Source of the DNA: a virus
Virus record (IMG/VR): IMGVR_UViG_3300028550_000832
Coordinates: 1 to 29,557 of that record
Length of the DNA: 29,557 nt
Strand: one strand, 5' to 3'
The position numbers and the translations under genes are program-made. The notes below the pieces were generated by a model that was given only the letters and a program-made list of their open reading frames with translations, made no database searches and was not told where the DNA came from. This document shows, piece after piece, positions 3,960-29,557 of this stretch. The stretch's first letter is position 1. The number at the start of each line of letters is the position of its first letter.

Positions 3960-4447
3960 AAAAGGATAGCAGAATTAACCACATTAGCTTTTAACTTCTT
4001 CTTAAATAACCTAGAGCGTTCTTCTAAGTCTGCATCGTAAGCCTCAATGCTATACTTTCCGTTAGCTTCTTTATCGATAGGTCTATACAATATAGCCATA
4101 ATCAAATGCAAGTTCTCGTTAAGGTCTTGACATAACGTGTCCAAGTCTCCAAACTCAGCCGTACTAATATCCGATAGGTTAGGTATGAACCCATATTTAA
4201 CATTATCTATCTTAACGAACTGGTGTAAACCTTCGCTTGCTTTCGATAGACTTAAAAGCTTACCATATACATCGTTTAAGTCTCCTAGCTTAACCTTATC
4301 AATAGTAGTTCTATCAATTGATGTAAGTAGTTCAATCGTTTGCTTTTGTCGCTCTAAATCGTTGAGAGGTGTTGCCTCTAACTTTGTCAAAGCTTGCAGT
4401 TGCCCTAATGTAATGTCACTTAAGTCTGTTGGTATAATTAACTTCAT
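3845..4447 (-). CDS. Tail assembly chaperone (G-like)
   Basis: A 200-residue, mostly helical protein with an ATG at 4447 and an AT-rich leader. The N-terminus (MKLIIPTDLSDITLGQLQAL) is typical of tail assembly chaperones in Bacteroidetes phages. It should be the abundant chaperone that coats the tape measure protein during tail assembly. The last 36 residues after the U9 run overlap the T reading frame and are Ser-rich and low in information, as expected if the shifted product is the conserved one. It opens the tail operon, just after a terminator and a candidate promoter. Confidence 0.75.
   Translation of the reverse strand: MKLIIPTDLSDITLGQLQALTKLEATPLNDLERQKQTIELLTSIDRTTIDKVKLGDLNDVYGKLLSLSKASEGLHQFVKIDNVKYGFIPNLSDISTAEFGDLDTLCQDLNENLHLIMAILYRPIDKEANGKYSIEAYDADLEERSRLFKKKLKANVVNSAILFFWSIGNDYLTDLLTSIQVGEETKSSNHSVKSGVGIQS
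3955..3964 (-). promoter_or_regulatory. Slippery site for -1 programmed frameshift
   Basis: On the mRNA strand the sequence is C-U9-GG. In the zero frame it reads CUU UUU UUU UGG. A one-base backward slip gives UUU UUG GAG and enters the T frame at 3959. It lies about 120 bases before the zero-frame stop. Homopolymer U runs are known slippery sequences. I did not identify a clear downstream stimulatory structure, apart from a G-rich stretch (GGTGGGGGAGG) about 55 bases later. Confidence 0.7.
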
Positions 4448-4495: not shown

Positions 4496-4522
4496 AAAAA
4501 AAGCCCTCCGAATGGAGAGCCT
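4496..4522 (-). terminator. Rho-independent terminator after the 4726-4544 cassette
   Basis: In transcript orientation AGGCTCTCC, loop ATTC, GGAGGGCT, then T7. The stem is GC-rich with one G-U pair and is followed directly by the T run. It separates the cassette gene from the tail operon. Confidence 0.85.
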
Positions 4523-4543: not shown

Positions 4544-4726
4544 TTAATTAAAATATTCTTTTTTCCATAAATCCATATATATAGATTCATATTTTAAAGC
4601 ATCCAACTCACAATCAAACTGAATTGATAAAGTACCGTCTTCGTTGTAAGTAGTTTTAGAATCCCACATTATAGTGATGTAGATTGTTTCGTTTATCGCT
4701 TGGCTTAAATTGTGTAAAGTTCTCAT
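4544..4726 (-). CDS. Small moron-like gene, unknown function (60 aa)
   Basis: The frame is open from an ATG at 4765, but that codon lies inside the promoter spacer, upstream of any transcript. The next ATG at 4726 (MRTLHNLSQ) is the supported start and gives 60 residues. The product is acidic and has no signal peptide or membrane segment. Its middle (WDSKTTYNEDGTLSIQFD) looks like a beta hairpin and the C-terminus like a helix. I do not recognise the family. It sits between the large terminase and the tail operon with its own strong promoter and its own terminator, the layout of a moron expressed independently of the phage programme. Its promoter is nearly the same as that of the plus-strand gene at 23012-23308. 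Confidence 0.7.
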   Translation of the reverse strand: MRTLHNLSQAINETIYITIMWDSKTTYNEDGTLSIQFDCELDALKYESIYMDLWKKEYFN

Positions 4727-4749
4727 ATCGTTTCTCGTTTTGTTCCCTA

Positions 4750-4780
4750 CAAAGATAGATAACATTTCGGTACTACCAAA
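4750..4780 (-). promoter_or_regulatory. Strong Bacteroidetes-type promoter of the 4726 cassette
   Basis: TTTG at 4780-4777, 19-base spacer, TATCTTTG at 4757-4750, followed by TAGGGAACAAAA. This is an excellent match to the known Bacteroidetes consensus TTTG-N19-TAnnTTTG. The -7 element and the following GGGAACAAAA are shared with the promoter at 22960-22990. Confidence 0.85.
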
Positions 4781-4811
4781 TCTAATTGTGTTTATTTATG
4801 ACTTAATTAAA

Positions 4812-6122
4812 TTACCTAACATTATAACGACCAATCTTAGGCTTCACTTCGTAAAACATTCTCATAGCTAAAGCATCTGAGTAATCAGGTGAGCGACCGA
4901 TAACCGCTTTTACTACATCTTTAGGAACTATCTTTAGCTTTCCGTCCTTGTCTATGTCTTTGGACCTTACTTGCTCTAGTTCTTCTGTAATTAGTTTACG
5001 CTTATCAGCATCAATTACACTTATGCCAATCTGACCCTTATTAATTAAATCAGCTAACTTATAATAGCATTGAGTTTTCAAGTTCTGGTAATTCTCTTTC
5101 TTGATCGGTGTTGAATTATTAATAAAGCCTTTGCACCTGAGTACATCTTGAAGACCACCACCTACACCATCACTATCCACAATGATATTACTTAGCTTTA
5201 CTTGATGGTTCTTTTGAAGCTCTCTAATATACTCAGCAAGTTCTGTAATAGTATTCTTGTCAAAGGTCTTAATCATTACCACCTGCAAGCCTTCGAACAA
5301 CATCACAACGGATTTATCCTCCCCCATACGTGCAACATCGCAGCTAATATACTTCTCTCCTTCTGTTCCCTTGTTGGTGAATAGGTTTAAAATAGAATCG
5401 TAATCAATTAAAGAATCTGAATCTGCGTCATATTCCCAGTTACCGAAGAGCAATCTTTGCTTTGAAACTTCATCTAATTTGCTCAGTTGCTTTTCGTAAT
5501 GCTTCGATATAAATTGATTGTCAGTTACCAATGAAGGAACGAACTTTCTGTAATCTTTTAATGTACCTAATTGAGCTGGCTTATAATATTCTGTATAAAC
5601 CCAATTCTTAGCAGGGTTACAAGTCATTAGAAGCTTTGGAATGATTGCAAAGTCATCTAGTTTATATCTGATTCTAGACTGAACTACATTAATAGCTTTG
5701 TGCGTGACTTGATTTGCTTCATCAATAAATGCTCCTGTAATTTCCAATGAACCTAAACTATCAAAATTCCTATCAGATGGATATAAGAACAAATCCTTTA
5801 GTATAATCTCTGAACCGTTCTTAAATGTAACAATGTTACTCGATCCGTTGAAAGTATAATGTTCTCCACTCTTTAAACCCCAAGCACCGCAAACTTCAAA
5901 GAACGTGTTTAAGGTAGTCTTCTTTAAAGCATCTAACTTAGAACGCCCCATTAGGTATCTAGTCTTAGGATAACGCAAACACATAGTCACAAGCCAAGCA
6001 GAACCTACCCAAGACTTCCCACCTCCAGCAGCCCCACCAAATAAAACTTCGTTGGTATGGCCATCGAATAGGAATCTTAAACACTCCTTCTGCTTAGATG
6101 TAAAGTCTGGATTAATTTCCAA
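4812..6122 (-). CDS. terL: Terminase large subunit
   Basis: ATP-driven DNA packaging motor plus headful or cos nuclease. The ATPase domain shows Walker A GGAAGGGKS (29-37) and Walker B with the catalytic Glu in FIDEA (132-136). The C-terminal RNase H-like nuclease shows its acidic residues in SCDVARMGEDKS (D262) and IIVDSDGVGGG (D316/D318), with a late DYSDAL motif near 415. The length of 436 is normal for the family. The start overlaps the 3' end of the small-terminase-like gene by 11 bases. Transcription after it runs into the 4726 cassette region. Portal is not next to it, which is unusual. Confidence 0.95.
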   Translation of the reverse strand: MEINPDFTSKQKECLRFLFDGHTNEVLFGGAAGGGKSWVGSAWLVTMCLRYPKTRYLMGRSKLDALKKTTLNTFFEVCGAWGLKSGEHYTFNGSSNIVTFKNGSEIILKDLFLYPSDRNFDSLGSLEITGAFIDEANQVTHKAINVVQSRIRYKLDDFAIIPKLLMTCNPAKNWVYTEYYKPAQLGTLKDYRKFVPSLVTDNQFISKHYEKQLSKLDEVSKQRLLFGNWEYDADSDSLIDYDSILNLFTNKGTEGEKYISCDVARMGEDKSVVMLFEGLQVVMIKTFDKNTITELAEYIRELQKNHQVKLSNIIVDSDGVGGGLQDVLRCKGFINNSTPIKKENYQNLKTQCYYKLADLINKGQIGISVIDADKRKLITEELEQVRSKDIDKDGKLKIVPKDVVKAVIGRSPDYSDALAMRMFYEVKPKIGRYNVR

Positions 6123-6504
6123 GGTCTATATGTATTTTAATCGCTTCGTCCTTACTCGTAATATCTAACTTATCTTGAGCTTTCCCAAAAGTATAATCAC
6201 GAAAGTCTGACATCATTTTAAGTCTAGTATTTGGATTGTTAAATTCCTGAATCATTAACTTTAGATAGACTGGTGTATCATCATCTCTTGTAAGCTCTTT
6301 TAAGTCCTCAATAGTACAATTGAATATTAGAGAACACGTCTCCATGTAATCGCCTTTAGACAGCTTCTTAATACCTTTAGCAGTCAAGTCTAAGTTGATA
6401 GAAGCAAACGACCTTCTGTTAACTCCTGTCTTATTTATATTCTTAGGATTCTTACTAAAACCCTCTGAGTTTATTTTGTCTCCAAAATTACTTTCCTTTC
6501 CCAT
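6112..6504 (-). CDS. Terminase small subunit-like protein
   Basis: A 130-residue protein directly upstream of, and overlapping, terL. The N-terminus (KNPKNINKTGVNRRSFASIN) is Asn/Lys-rich, as in small-subunit-like proteins of Bacteroidetes phages. The middle and C-terminus are helical (SLIFNCTIEDLKEL, then a segment around MSDFRDYTFGKAQDKLDI). A small terminase role, recognising the packaging site, is inferred from position and general pattern. No clear helix-turn-helix can be assigned by eye. Confidence 0.6.
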   Translation of the reverse strand: MGKESNFGDKINSEGFSKNPKNINKTGVNRRSFASINLDLTAKGIKKLSKGDYMETCSLIFNCTIEDLKELTRDDDTPVYLKLMIQEFNNPNTRLKMMSDFRDYTFGKAQDKLDITSKDEAIKIHIDLGN

Positions 6505-6524
6505 ATCGAGTTGCTATTGAGTTG

Positions 6525-6788
6525 CTATTCATTACCATACTTTTCCATATAGTTTAAATGTATTTCTACAAGCATTTCCTTATACTGTTTCTTATCCCCA
6601 TACCTAATATGGCAAGGTCTGCAAACCGCTTGTAAATTACCTATGTAATCCTTTACTTTACTTCCTCCCATGCCGCGAGCTTCTATATGATGTATATCTT
6701 GTGCAGGACTTGAGCATACTTCGCAAGGGATAAAATCCAACTCATCAAAGTTGAAATACTCTAGGTATATTTTAGTATGCTTTCTCAT
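6525..6788 (-). CDS. HNH endonuclease
   Basis: An 87-residue single-domain nuclease. Two zinc knuckles are visible, CEVC (22-25) and CRPCH (56-60), enclosing the catalytic IHHIEARGMGG stretch (His33/His34) and Asn51 in GNLQAVC. HNH proteins beside terminase genes in HK97-like phages take part in cutting at the packaging site, so a role in genome processing is likely. That role is inference from context. The start overlaps the stop of the 26-codon gene before it (ATGA). The alternative, a free-standing homing nuclease, is less likely given the tight packing. Confidence 0.85.
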   Translation of the reverse strand: MRKHTKIYLEYFNFDELDFIPCEVCSSPAQDIHHIEARGMGGSKVKDYIGNLQAVCRPCHIRYGDKKQYKEMLVEIHLNYMEKYGNE

Positions 6789-6865
6789 GGATTATTTCTT
6801 ATATAATTTTCAACTATAATCGATATACATACTAGAGATGCAAATATTAGTATTGGTATGTGCAT
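6785..6865 (-). CDS. 26-residue hydrophobic peptide
   Basis: ATG at 6865, two bases after the stop of the ParB-domain gene, ending in a TGA that overlaps the HNH start as ATGA. The product is almost entirely one hydrophobic segment (IPILIFASLVCISIIV) followed by a polar tail (ENYIRNNP), so it should be a single-pass membrane peptide. Exact fit at both ends argues for a real gene despite the length. Function unknown. Confidence 0.45.
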   Translation of the reverse strand: MHIPILIFASLVCISIIVENYIRNNP

Positions 6866-6867
6866 AA

Positions 6868-7317
6868 TTAAATCTTTTCACCGCAAAGTTCGCAAACATC
6901 TTTAGTAATATCTTCTAAAGTATTGTCTTCGTACTTGTCAATATTAATATTGAAATCGTTATCGGTAAATCCTACATCTTTTAGCATCTCTTCAGGGAAG
7001 TAATTAATTAGCATATCGTCATCAAACTTCCCTCCGTTCTTATTCAGTCTAAGGTTAAGCTTCATCTCACTCTCTAATGGAAGATCTACCAAAGAACAAA
7101 TGACACTATCATAACCTAAGTCTTCTAAAACTCTAACCCTCTGATGACCTCCAACAATTATATTCTCTCTACCTTTGTAAGTGTTTACAACAATAGTCTC
7201 AACAATACCAAACTCAGTTAATGAATTCTTTAAATCCTTATACTCTTTCTTTGTGATAATTCTAGGGTTATACTCAGCAAACTTTAATTCACTTATCTTT
7301 CTACTTTCAATCTTCAT
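6868..7317 (-). CDS. ParB N-terminal (ParB/Srx) domain protein
   Basis: A 149-residue protein with the ParB/Srx fold signature: an N-terminal ISELKFAEYNPRI, then EFGIVETIVVN and the phosphate-binding GGHQR motif near residue 60, then a segment typical of the phage subfamily (LVDLPLESEMKLNLRLNKN). The C-terminus carries half a zinc knuckle, CELCGEK. I chose the ATG at 7317; a TTG nine bases earlier is possible. The start overlaps the upstream gene's end by 11 bases. ParB-like domains in phages are linked with DNA binding, nicking or methylase partners. Next to the HNH and terminase genes a DNA-processing role is plausible but unproven. Confidence 0.75.
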   Translation of the reverse strand: MKIESRKISELKFAEYNPRIITKKEYKDLKNSLTEFGIVETIVVNTYKGRENIIVGGHQRVRVLEDLGYDSVICSLVDLPLESEMKLNLRLNKNGGKFDDDMLINYFPEEMLKDVGFTDNDFNINIDKYEDNTLEDITKDVCELCGEKI

Positions 7318-7681
7318 ATCCTGCAAGTACTTCTCTTAGTTCCTTAATCGTTTGAGCTACACAAGAACCACATTTAGACGCTTGCTTATTCATTCCGAAG
7401 ATTTCATTGTATAGTTTGGTTACTCCGATGTTATCGTTGTGCGTAATCTTATCTGTACCTATTTGATTTAGTAATCGTTTCAATATAGATAGTTGGTCTT
7501 TTGTAAGGTCGTTCTCACGTTCCCAGTTACCTACTGGACATCTAGTAAATGCTATCTTTGCTTTGATCTTCATAAAGCAACCGCACTTCTTGCATTGGCT
7601 TAAAGACTTACGAAAGTGAGGGCAGGCGTTGCATAGACTTATCCTCTCATTGTAAGTTCTATCACTTGTCTTTAACCTCAT
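7307..7681 (-). CDS. Zinc-finger protein of a Bacteroidetes phage family
   Basis: A 124-residue protein with an N-terminal four-cysteine cluster, CNACPHF and CKKCGCF, followed by TRCPVGNWE, and a C-terminal SKCGSCV preceded by TKLYNEIFG. The two parts resemble a zinc ribbon and a helical module that I have seen together in Flavobacteria phages next to the sigma-like gene. The overlap with both neighbours (20 bases upstream, 11 downstream) shows one operon. It may help the sigma factor or bind nucleic acid. Function is unknown. Confidence 0.65.
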   Translation of the reverse strand: MRLKTSDRTYNERISLCNACPHFRKSLSQCKKCGCFMKIKAKIAFTRCPVGNWERENDLTKDQLSILKRLLNQIGTDKITHNDNIGVTKLYNEIFGMNKQASKCGSCVAQTIKELREVLAGYED

Positions 7682-15051: not shown

Positions 15052-15276
15052 TTAGTTTTTAATAGTTAAAGTGAAAGGAGCTGAGAAATGAAAAAGACTC
15101 TGAGTTGCCGAAACGTATATATTTACATTTTTGTTCGTAATTACTAAACCTGATTTAGTCAGCTCACGTCCATTAATACTTACTATATCAGAAGCATCGA
15201 ATTGAGGAGTATAATTAAAACCAGTTCTAATAGCTTGTTTTAGTTCTTTGGCAGTATTGAATGTAATTGATTTCAT
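15052..15276 (-). CDS. First early gene, small protein (74 aa), unknown
   Basis: ATG at 15276 behind AAAAACAACTACTATT and about 45 bases after the early promoter, so it should be among the first transcripts after infection. The product is beta-rich with an N-terminal helix (NTAKELKQAIRTGF) and a central strand pair (VITNKNVNIYVSA). First-position early genes in phages often act on the host, but nothing in the sequence shows a target. Confidence 0.6.
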   Translation of the reverse strand: MKSITFNTAKELKQAIRTGFNYTPQFDASDIVSINGRELTKSGLVITNKNVNIYVSATQSLFHFSAPFTLTIKN

Positions 15277-15319: not shown

Positions 15320-15350
15320 CAAAGATACACAAACTTTTCATTGTGGCAAT
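15320..15350 (-). promoter_or_regulatory. Early promoter, Bacteroidetes type
   Basis: ATTG at 15350-15347, exactly 19 bases, TATCTTTG at 15327-15320. A near-ideal host-type promoter upstream of the first early gene and just after the late-region terminator. Confidence 0.85.
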
Positions 15351-22959: not shown

Positions 22960-22990
22960 TTTGGTAATGTCGAAAATTGAACTATCTTTG
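22960..22990 (+). promoter_or_regulatory. Strong Bacteroidetes-type promoter of the plus-strand cassette
   Basis: TTTG at 22960-22963, 19-base spacer, TATCTTTG at 22983-22990, then TAGGGAACAAAA. The same spacing, -7 and downstream bases are found at 4780-4750 on the other strand; the spacer starts GTA in both and shares CGAAA. Confidence 0.85.
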
Positions 22991-23011
22991 TAGGGAACAA
23001 AAAACAAAACC

Positions 23012-23308
23012 ATGGAATTGATACAATTTAAAAATAGCGAAGAACGAGAATCAATGTTATACGAACTTCTTAACGTTCTAAAGCTTAACGCTCACTTTGA
23101 AAGCTTCAACGATAGCGTATTTTCTTATTATTTAGAAGCAGATGATTTGAATTACGAATTTAACTTTATAACAGATGACTTTCTACTTAAAGAAATGACT
23201 GTGCAGGAGCTACTAGGATTAAAAGATGTCGGGTATTTTAGTAGTACTATAAGGTCTGAGATGTATAGTGAAGTAAAAGGTACTAAAACTTTTAGGTTAA
23301 TACCTTAA
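23012..23308 (+). CDS. Plus-strand moron gene, unknown function (98 aa)
   Basis: The only gene on the plus strand, lying against the flow of the structural operon between the major tail protein and the spike base. ATG at 23012, about 15 bases after the expected transcript start, with an A-rich leader. The product is acidic and soluble: a helical start (MELIQFKNSEERESMLYELL, NVLKLNAHFESFND), a central strand region (YYLEADDLNYEFNFITDDF) and an end with KGTKTFRLIP. No family recognised. Its own promoter and terminator, and expression opposite to the late genes, mark it as a moron. A host-takeover or anti-defence role is conceivable but not shown. Confidence 0.75.
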   Translation: MELIQFKNSEERESMLYELLNVLKLNAHFESFNDSVFSYYLEADDLNYEFNFITDDFLLKEMTVQELLGLKDVGYFSSTIRSEMYSEVKGTKTFRLIP

Positions 23309-23319
23309 AAATTAAGCAC

Positions 23320-23349
23320 AAAAAAAGCCCCTACTTACGCAGGGGCTTT
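23320..23349. terminator. Bidirectional terminator
   Basis: A 9-bp perfect stem AAAGCCCCT, loop of 8, AGGGGCTTT. A T7 run on the minus strand ends the capsid/tail transcript coming from 23946; a shorter T-rich tail on the plus strand ends the 23012 gene. Confidence 0.85.
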
Positions 23350-27695: not shown

Positions 27696-27835
27696 AACTC
27701 TTTCAGTTGTTTATAAGCTTGTTTAATTGTCTTAGGATATTCGTACTTACCAAATGCAATTTCATTCTGTTTATTAGGCTTTATTTTGCCTTGACAAATA
27801 CCTTTAATTACTTCGTTTATCATTTCCAATAGCAT
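27680..27835 (-). CDS. Small protein (51 aa) between tail hub and tape measure genes
   Basis: ATG at 27835 overlaps the end of the hub-like gene by 16 bases, and its end overlaps the tape measure start by 16. The product (MLLEMINEVIKGICQGKIKP, then FGKYEYPKTIKQAYKQLKEL) is basic and helical. The double overlap supports it. A tail assembly helper is possible; the family is not recognised. Confidence 0.6.
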   Translation of the reverse strand: MLLEMINEVIKGICQGKIKPNKQNEIAFGKYEYPKTIKQAYKQLKELWQKK

Positions 27836-29557
27836 TTATTATTTATATAAGTAAGACCTTGAGATTCGCAGCACTTAGCCGTTACGGAAACGCTTGAGCC
27901 TCCTGTATCAACCCATGAAGTAGAACCATCGTCATTATAAGAGTTTGGTGTTATTGAACAAACATCTGTATTAGGAGCATCAACAATCTTTAGAAGTTCT
28001 ACCTTCGTAGAATTACCTACACCCATTGCATGACTGTCAATCTTGTTAATTAAATAGTATGAATCTTTAACGAATATCTTATCGTTATACTTAAATGAAG
28101 AAATATCTAAAGAATCTAAATAGAAATAAGCACTCAAAATTCTAGCACTATTATTGTAGATGTTATTTAGTGAGTCACTCCAGAAATCGTTGTAGACATC
28201 GTTACCAGTTTGTGTCTGCACAAGGTCAGATTGATACTTAACTATTCCACTTTTAAATCGTATATCGCGATCCGTAGATACAACCATATAACCTGCCATT
28301 GAGTAGTGATGGCAGAAAGGATATGCAGTTCTAGTTGAATAAGTATTAGCAGGTTCATTCATCAACTTGAAATAGGACGAAGCAGGCAAACTTTTTAGCC
28401 CTGAGTAATAGAATAGTTTTGGCTTAGTTGTAACCGCTTCAACTTCTCCGTTATTGTATTTAAAATGCTTGGTAATAAACATTCTATTGTTAGGTATCTT
28501 ATCAGGAACAAAACTTGAAAATATTGTTGGCACTTTCAGTTCTCCACTTCCGAAATCTCCGTAGAACGGGAACGTATATGAATTGTAGATTGTACCTTTT
28601 TGATCTAACCACTCAACCCCCGTCTTATCCTTATCAGCTAAGTCAGTTAAATTAATACTATCCTTTCTAAATCTAGAAGTTGGTTCTATTAATATGCTCT
28701 TAGAAGTGTCTAATTTATCAGTCCAATCTTTAGAAGTTCCTGCATCTCTATAATCTTGTATTGGTTCTATATTCAATTGATTAGTAATAGTCTTGTCACT
28801 CTCAACGATTAGATTATAACGTGAGAATATAGACTTGATAAAATCAACTTGCTTATCTTTTGATAGTAGACTATTTCCTGAACCTAAATCTACTGTTCCA
28901 CCTTCAACCGCAGGAGGTACAGATACAAGTTGTACGAATGAATCGTAAACTACTGAATTAATTGTTGCCGAAGTTTTGAAACTAAGTACAGAACCAGCAT
29001 CCGAATTAACCTTAACCTTAACTACATCTGTTGAGGCTAAAGTTATAACCGATTCCTCACTTGTAAATACAGTAGTTCCGCCACTAGGTAAGAAAGTGAT
29101 AGGAATAACAGACGAAGTCACTCCGTTAATTTCAAATAATACAAATACATCTACAAGAGTAGAACCAGAACTATCAACAACTACCTGAACCCTAAACTCA
29201 TAATCACCGTCAGATGGTGCAGTATATGCTTTTGTACTTGTATTAAAATCTCCATTAACATCGTAGAAACCGCTTGCAGAAGTTTCATTATTAAAGTTAA
29301 GTATAGCAGCCCCACCAGATACGGCTTGATTTGAGTTCATACCAACTTTAAACCCTCCTGTATTATCCGTAACCGAACCATCAACTTCACCGCCTAAAGT
29401 CATATATTGACTAGTGAAGAATGTGCTATTTAAAAACGTTGAGCTTATTGTATATCCTGCATCCTCAAAAATCACATCAAGTAAAGCTTTAAGCTTAATC
29501 GAAGGCTTCAAATCTCTTGGCTTAATAGCACCTGCATCTGTATTTAAAGTGTCACCA
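27820..29557 (-). CDS. Tail hub/baseplate-like protein, 5' end cut by the window edge
   Basis: The frame is open to base 29557 without a start; a TTG at 29511 is not a credible start because homology to the left-end gene continues past it (DTLNTDAGAIKPRDLKPSIK). 578 residues are seen. Order: conserved block (SLLDVIFEDAGYTISS-like, STFFTSQYMTLGGEVDG), a C1q/TNF-like jelly roll (about 65-200, with FYDVNGDFNTSTKAYTAPSD, DYEFRVQV), a second conserved block (YDSFVQLVSVPPAVEGGTVD), then about 360 residues of tail-hub pattern (SIFSRYNLIVESDKTITNQL) and a Cys-rich end (CCESQGLTYINNKCYWK). Joined to the 1212 gene it would give about 750 residues. Confidence 0.75.
   Translation of the reverse strand, partial: GDTLNTDAGAIKPRDLKPSIKLKALLDVIFEDAGYTISSTFLNSTFFTSQYMTLGGEVDGSVTDNTGGFKVGMNSNQAVSGGAAILNFNNETSASGFYDVNGDFNTSTKAYTAPSDGDYEFRVQVVVDSSGSTLVDVFVLFEINGVTSSVIPITFLPSGGTTVFTSEESVITLASTDVVKVKVNSDAGSVLSFKTSATINSVVYDSFVQLVSVPPAVEGGTVDLGSGNSLLSKDKQVDFIKSIFSRYNLIVESDKTITNQLNIEPIQDYRDAGTSKDWTDKLDTSKSILIEPTSRFRKDSINLTDLADKDKTGVEWLDQKGTIYNSYTFPFYGDFGSGELKVPTIFSSFVPDKIPNNRMFITKHFKYNNGEVEAVTTKPKLFYYSGLKSLPASSYFKLMNEPANTYSTRTAYPFCHHYSMAGYMVVSTDRDIRFKSGIVKYQSDLVQTQTGNDVYNDFWSDSLNNIYNNSARILSAYFYLDSLDISSFKYNDKIFVKDSYYLINKIDSHAMGVGNSTKVELLKIVDAPNTDVCSITPNSYNDDGSTSWVDTGGSSVSVTAKCCESQGLTYINNKCYWK
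28873..29557. repeat. Right copy of a diverged direct repeat at the window ends
   Basis: Partner of 1-691 in the same orientation. The window stops exactly where both copies are still identical (GTGTCACCA), which suggests an assembly break at an allelic site or a terminal overlap rather than a natural end. Confidence 0.9.

Follow-up and report, generated by a model that had tools for sequence, protein, structure and literature searches.

A probable moron-type accessory cassette filling one of a pair of cargo slots in a marine flavobacterial phage

Why a small gene with a promoter of its own should stand against the direction of transcription in the structural operon of a phage is the question raised by a virus record of 29,557 bases, which was analyzed whole and is called the window here. 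All its genes are read from the minus strand, small overlapping ORFs being set aside, save one at positions 23012 to 23308 of the plus strand. The initial annotation had described a lone plus-strand gene running against the structural operon and encoding an acidic protein of 98 residues, and both points were borne out: the ORF (the cassette 2 gene) occupies a gap in the minus-strand structural operon, and its product, which belongs to no known family, has a calculated pI of 4.4, with 18 D/E versus 9 K/R residues. The flanking genes had been named as those of a major tail protein and a head spike base, for which we found no support, since the sole PHROG match of the upstream neighbor (g23368) is of unknown function and the downstream neighbor (g22648) matches a "tail fiber" PHROG. 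Comparison with the copy in one related locus (L002; loci are denoted by L numbers) gave a dN of 0.086 and a dS of 1.035, which argues that the ORF is a real, constrained gene, and by this measure its coding sequence is under purifying selection. As to the record itself, the open ORF at its left end (1 to 1212) resembles, without equaling, the start of the right-end ORF (27820 to 29511), and one tail gene is common to both overlapping ends, as if two population variants had been joined or the gene had been duplicated.

In a presence/absence comparison of related phages, universal conservation of the gene did not appear: among the 22 loci that have the capsid gene in common and span the junction (site 2), 20 are empty there, with a gap of 105 to 116 bp. 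The gene itself was found in viral contigs at two loci (L004 and L007, at 84%). Lining up the filled junctions (the window, L004, and L007) with the 20 empty ones places the inserted segment at 22960 to 23318 of the plus strand, with edges fixed to within a few bases, that is, from the -35 region to just beyond the stop codon. In a wider set of 22 non-identical site 2 junctions, 18 are empty, three hold opposite-strand genes (L002, L003, and L035), and one (L210) holds a gene that reads the same way as the operon. Under the 20-base promoter core described below, L035 carries two other genes, followed by a terminator of the type found at site 1, the place of cassette 1 in the window. Since the unit is inserted or lost cleanly between the operon terminator and the next gene, no structural gene is interrupted, and insertion at this point would leave the virion genes whole.

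The hairpin next to cassette 2 (23324 to 23349, on both strands) had been taken for a shared bidirectional terminator. It does fold on both strands, with -14.6 kcal/mol and a z score of -3.1 on the plus strand, where the T-tract is poor, and with -19.5 kcal/mol and a z score of -4.7 on the minus strand, but a terminator scan requiring a T-tract passes it on the minus strand only. Because empty relatives also have the hairpin at the corresponding place, it is the structural operon's own terminator (minus strand) and not the cassette's, and cassette 2 would reach it from the opposite side.

The promoter of cassette 2 was placed at 22960 to 22990 of the plus strand from the sequence, a scan of the window, and the F. 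psychrophilum sigma-A rule. It comprises TTTGG from 22960 and a -7 box, TATCTTTG, at 22983 to 22990; among the plus-strand ORFs of the window, only the cassette 2 gene has a TANNTTTG box 14 to 70 nt before its ATG. Under the rule, described for F. psychrophilum, sigma-A promoters carry TAnnTTTG at -12 to -5, and this motif is described as a known flavobacterial sigma-A box (PMC9723704). The cassette 2 transcript would accordingly begin at 22995 with a leader of 17 nt, and the promoter ahead of the gene is, by its motifs, of the Bacteroidetes type. The twin promoter claimed earlier for the window also stood: the exact 20-base core TATCTTTGTAGGGAACAAAA has two copies, one at 22983 to 23002 of the plus strand (predicted +1 at 22995) and the other at 4738 to 4757 of the minus strand, where 0.01 would be expected by chance, and the two promoters have 37 of 44 bases in common. 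The minus-strand copy belongs to the promoter of cassette 1 (4738 to 4784, with TTTGG at about 4776 to 4780 and the +1 predicted at 4745). A third promoter of this general type, at 15327 of the minus strand before the ORF at 15276, has a TTG at -33 and lacks the extension TAGGGAACAAAA discussed next; it is the only other host-type promoter in the window with a -33 TTG ahead of an ORF and is likely an early-region promoter.

To call the promoter host type, as had been done, turned out to be half the story: the -7 box TANNTTTG is that of the host, but it bears a fixed 12-base extension, TAGGGAACAAAA, that is nearly missing from cellular genomes. The exact 20-mer occurs in 33 viral stretches and a looser form, TANNTTTGTAGGGAACAAAA, in 57, loci that are not independent events, since many of the contigs share a sampling project and some nearly duplicate others; with the extension scrambled, one stretch was found. 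In 257 Gb of cellular genomes, there were 10 stretches with the extended promoter, several of them in unrelated phyla. Ordinary promoters similar to the extended one exist, as three of these 10 hits (L069, L072, and L074) have an ATG 18 to 30 nt on, opening ORFs of 353 to 465 aa. Of 45 extended sites, 38 have an ATG 16 to 36 nt past the box that opens an ORF of 42 to 130 aa; for plain TANNTTTG sites, these loci gave 88 of 806 (distances were counted from the end of TTTG, and sites with less than 200 nt downstream were dropped). The 50 ORFs at non-identical tagged sites fall into 37 BLAST groups. The collection scans were exact-match searches, which makes conservation inside the 20-mer true by construction; the evidence therefore consists of the counts against controls and of conservation outside the 20-mer, which may itself be less than the full extent of the signal. 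The contigs are metagenomic and often partial, and repeats with identical flanks were dropped from the cellular/downstream-ORF and junction tables. Searched against named phages, the promoter region matched Olleya phage Harreka_1 over 18 bases and otherwise gave matches at chance level, and no paper turned up in a literature search for TTTGTAGGGAAC.

Cassette 1 lies between TerL and g3845 (site 1), its gene occupying 4544 to 4726 of the minus strand. The ORF listed there, of 73 aa, begins upstream of the predicted transcript start, so the likely product is the 60-aa ORF. The gene is followed by a terminator hairpin (4500 to 4522, minus strand; -14.3 kcal/mol, z score of -2.1) with a T-run after it. 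Terminators of this type are also present in L033, L053, L061, L064, L108, and L022, and at site 2 in L035; since the empty site in L014 is without one, the terminator at site 1 is evidently part of the cassette. In L033/L044, L053, L061, and L064, TerL and g3845 are 94 to 99% identical to those of the window, and at site 1 these loci and the window share the promoter and the terminator type, with different ORFs between them. The 13 non-identical site 1 junctions whose TerL is at least 90% identical comprise nine with ORFs, three empty ones (35 bp), and that of L108. Counting cassette 1, the ORFs of these near relatives number 12 different ones in 11 BLAST groups.

The same neighborhood recurs far beyond these near relatives. 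Of the 57 loci, 32 have a g3845 homologue, mostly 27 to 37% identical, on the same strand and 286 to 1028 bp downstream, and the ORF ending 42 to 76 nt upstream proved to be TerL in all eight g3845 loci given a family search; the same search assigned no family to the upstream ORF of L055 and L063, two loci without g3845. Judging from these neighbors, phages that have diverged very far from one another still keep a TerL-side slot with this promoter.

Several loci depart from the common layout. In L108 (about 4050 to 4140) and L022 (about 1454 to 1520), the promoter core runs directly into the cassette terminator with no ORF, and these units may be emptied slots or units yielding a short RNA only. 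L103 diverges from the others right after TATCTTTGTAG, and in L103 (about 2350 to 2400) and L022 (about 1090 to 1145) the -7 box is followed by a leader of a second type, in which inverted bases border GCAATGAAGC (TTGC..GCAA in L103, ATCGC..GCGAT in L022); with its paired changes on both sides, this leader could possibly form a small hairpin at the transcript start. The interval from TerL to the next core gene in L039 (4400 to 5950, minus strand) contains an array of small ORFs, several of them preceded by a near-copy of the same promoter. In the more distant phages L164, L172, L170, L168, and L153 (TerL 71 to 72%), opposite-strand ORFs of 77 to 103 aa occupy the gap between TerL and the next gene.

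As a control for variability, the gaps between neighboring genes were compared among relatives, in counts that take in contigs of similar origin, and a gap enlarged by >150 bp was scored as expanded. Expansion was seen at 10 of 17 site 1 junctions and at 3 of 23 site 2 junctions. Five control junctions were constant: g26106-g25514 (0/15), g24904-g24001 (0/23), g24001-g23368 (0/25), g7662-g7307 (0/18), and g6112-g4812 (0/14). The two slots are not the sole variable places, since the early-region junctions g6868-g6525 (7/17) and g6525-g6112 (5/13) vary as well. A third variable place of the window extends from 6112 to 7326, around an HNH gene (6525 to 6788) and a ParB-like gene (6868 to 7326).

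The two cassettes had been regarded as independent acquisitions of one and the same expression unit. The regulatory parts fit this: when the site 2 cassette of L035 is set against site 1 cassettes, its promoter agrees with that of L064 at 40 of 44 bases and its terminator with that of L053 at 43 of 45, and the parts at the two sites likely share ancestry. The cargo does not go so far; no gene common to sites 1 and 2 was seen in the cargo list, and for that reason transfer of whole cassettes is something that we infer. The list, from which the BLAST groups given above were also drawn, leaves out the L022 promoter (no ORF before the terminator), the L093 promoter (ATG 96 nt away), sites without a closed ORF, and the cellular loci.

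Taken together, these sequence comparisons make it probable that cassette 2 is a moron-type accessory cassette, that it fills one of the two cargo slots that this marine flavobacterial phage has, and that it works in a manner like that of promoter-early stem-loop (PeSL) cassettes. The part of this reading that we hold with most confidence is that the cassette is an accessory one with its own promoter, can be swapped, and lies in a slot whose content varies. That it is expressed early seems rather likely: host RNA polymerase with sigma-A would read the promoter upon DNA entry, before phage factors exist, giving an early protein. Homologous recombination in the common promoter and terminator sequences would swap the gene between them, as the identity of the flanks suggests. 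What the 98-aa acidic product does is a more tentative matter; counteraction of host defense is the most likely single role, although we put it slightly below an even chance.

The protein itself gives little guidance. Searches of PHROGs, Pfam, and NCBIfam returned nothing usable for it, the best match (AmoC-like, E value of 0.11 to 0.12) being judged a chance one, and named phages and plasmids gave no match. A PDB profile search returned designed toroid repeats, no stretch of which passed alone, and two further weak matches (E values of 1 and 1.7), all judged artifacts. The AlphaFold model, a structure prediction having been proposed earlier as a check on the protein, has a pLDDT of 34. By these searches the protein is without a detectable homologue outside close relatives; the absence of its gene from two cellular genomes shows little. 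Among the 54 cargo proteins scanned for families, one is a DNA methyltransferase, namely, the C5 cytosine methyltransferase at site 1 of L103, and the remaining ones give no usable defense match. The L103 enzyme points to antirestriction, and this, together with the rapid turnover of the cargo, makes counter-defense the best single guess.

The closest competitor keeps the same cassette and takes its product for an early host-takeover protein by which transcription, replication, or metabolism of the host is adjusted. The host-type promoter, the short acidic ORF, and the lack of a defense family match would suit such a protein, and small early ORFs of lytic phages, with SPP1 as a case in point, often encode host-takeover proteins. 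We nevertheless think this somewhat unlikely, as fast turnover between phages that are about 97% identical is more readily explained by an opponent that changes than by a host target that stays the same, and as the methyltransferase cargo of L103 speaks for a defense-related role.

A lysogeny-type moron, expressed from the prophage and guarding the host from superinfection or altering its surface, would likewise have its own promoter and lie antisense to lytic genes, an arrangement for which Salmonella prophage ST64B offers a parallel (PMC7067206). A Pfam scan of 37 window ORFs found no integrase or repressor family, a scan that short or novel ones could escape and that some small ORFs lay outside, and we regard this explanation as improbable.

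It is still less probable that the 20-mer is simply an ordinary strong host promoter, the twin having arisen by convergence and the cassettes being unrelated. The box is the known flavobacterial sigma-A box TAnnTTTG as described in PMC9723704, and three of the 10 cellular hits do stand 18 to 30 nt before an ORF, but those 10 stretches in 257 Gb compare with 57 viral ones, the scrambled extension gave one, and the likeness reaches upstream of the 20-mer (40/44, L064 versus L035) and into the terminators (43/45, L053 versus L035). That the unit acts as RNA, its plus-strand transcript opposing the structural operon or ending as a small RNA with an incidental ORF, is very improbable given the dN of 0.086 against a dS of 1.035 and the regular ATG distance at 38 of 45 extended sites, even though the arrangement is convergent and L108 and L022 have the promoter and terminator with no ORF.

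A wider form of the preferred reading, an accessory cassette in a variable slot, is possible, though we think it less likely than not: marine Bacteroidetes phages might have in common a cargo cartridge made of a near-fixed TANNTTTG plus TAGGGAACAAAA promoter, a terminator, and an exchanged gene, housed in TerL-side and post-capsid antisense slots, with the extension serving as a recombination handle and/or an early signal and the cargo forming a large, as yet unmined pool of counter-defense proteins. Its TerL-side slot is kept across phages that are about 30% identical. If the slot reading is true, the 20-base tag can pick out, in marine phages that have not been cultured, accessory genes beyond the reach of protein search and provides an address at which to seek counter-defense genes in Bacteroidetes phages, and promoter-terminator shuffling would extend beyond T4-like phages. 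The constant segment of the promoter from -4 to +8 asks for an explanation.

How, then, does cassette 2 compare with known systems? By TerL, g3845, and capsid, the named relatives of the window are Flavobacterium phage 11b and the Nonlabens (Persicivirga) phages P12024L and P12024S of the genus Inhavirus, the latter two being the nearest by capsid (28%) and g3845 (34%). P12024L, a cultured phage, is the nearest also by g23368 (31%), and next to that homologue, at site 2, a single small gene stands on the opposite strand, P12024L_04, which has a TATATTTG -7 box and a hairpin of its own. The protein, suspected from its position to be a homologue of the cassette 2 product, was rejected as such (BLAST E value of 3.0, hhalign probability of 0.7%). 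P12024L/S differ from the window in the unrelated protein, the hairpin of its own, the lack of the TAGGGAACAAAA extension, and an empty site 1. The late region of P12024L has two further lone opposite-strand small genes, P12024L_44 and P12024L_07, with promoter-like boxes ahead of them, the places being L245 (5704 to 6000, minus strand) and L247 (5123 to 5365, minus strand).

In hotspots of P2 and P4, described as having high gene turnover at places fixed by two conserved genes (PMC9122126), the anchored turnover resembles that of site 1, where two conserved anchor genes likewise enclose a rapidly changing interval. The cargo here differs in consisting mostly of single ORFs of 50 to 130 aa without defense families, and the window yielded no lysogeny genes.

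Morons are described as added transcription units (PMC6316719). Like them, cassette 2 has its own promoter (by sequence), is missing at a precisely defined junction in close relatives (20 of 22 empty), is non-core, and runs antisense to the structural genes. It differs in using the operon's terminator, and because no terminator of its own lies inside the insert, the hairpin being present in empty relatives, it falls outside the strict sense of the term, though L035 has a terminator of its own; it differs also in belonging to a series of units with constant regulatory parts and changing genes. The annotation as a moron thus holds for the promoter, the absence from most close relatives, and the purifying selection and fails for the terminator, and in the wider sense of an added transcription unit, as described in PMC6316719, cassette 2 fits.

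The nearest parallel to the series as a whole is found in T4-type phages, in which PeSL cassettes are described as shuffling genes (PMC4503421 and PMC3950731). The window shows no sign of T4 kinship, its nearest named relatives being flavobacterial; it has two fixed slots versus dense repeats (L039 has an array), its promoter carries the constant 12-base extension, and cassette 2 is antisense. For these reasons (relatives not of the T4 type, two places, and a constant extension), we liken the cassettes to PeSL cassettes and claim no membership. No paper on PeSL cassettes in flavobacterial phages was among the matches listed in the literature searches. Arbiol (2010) and Comeau (2014) reportedly dealt with the PeSL cassettes of T4-type phages as mobile regulatory cassettes, for which shuffling via common regulatory sequence has been proposed, and here, too, the identity of the flanks suggests recombination at the motif. 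What the two systems have in common is a repeated host-type promoter and a stem-loop terminator that, as seen at site 1, frame small genes differing between close relatives.
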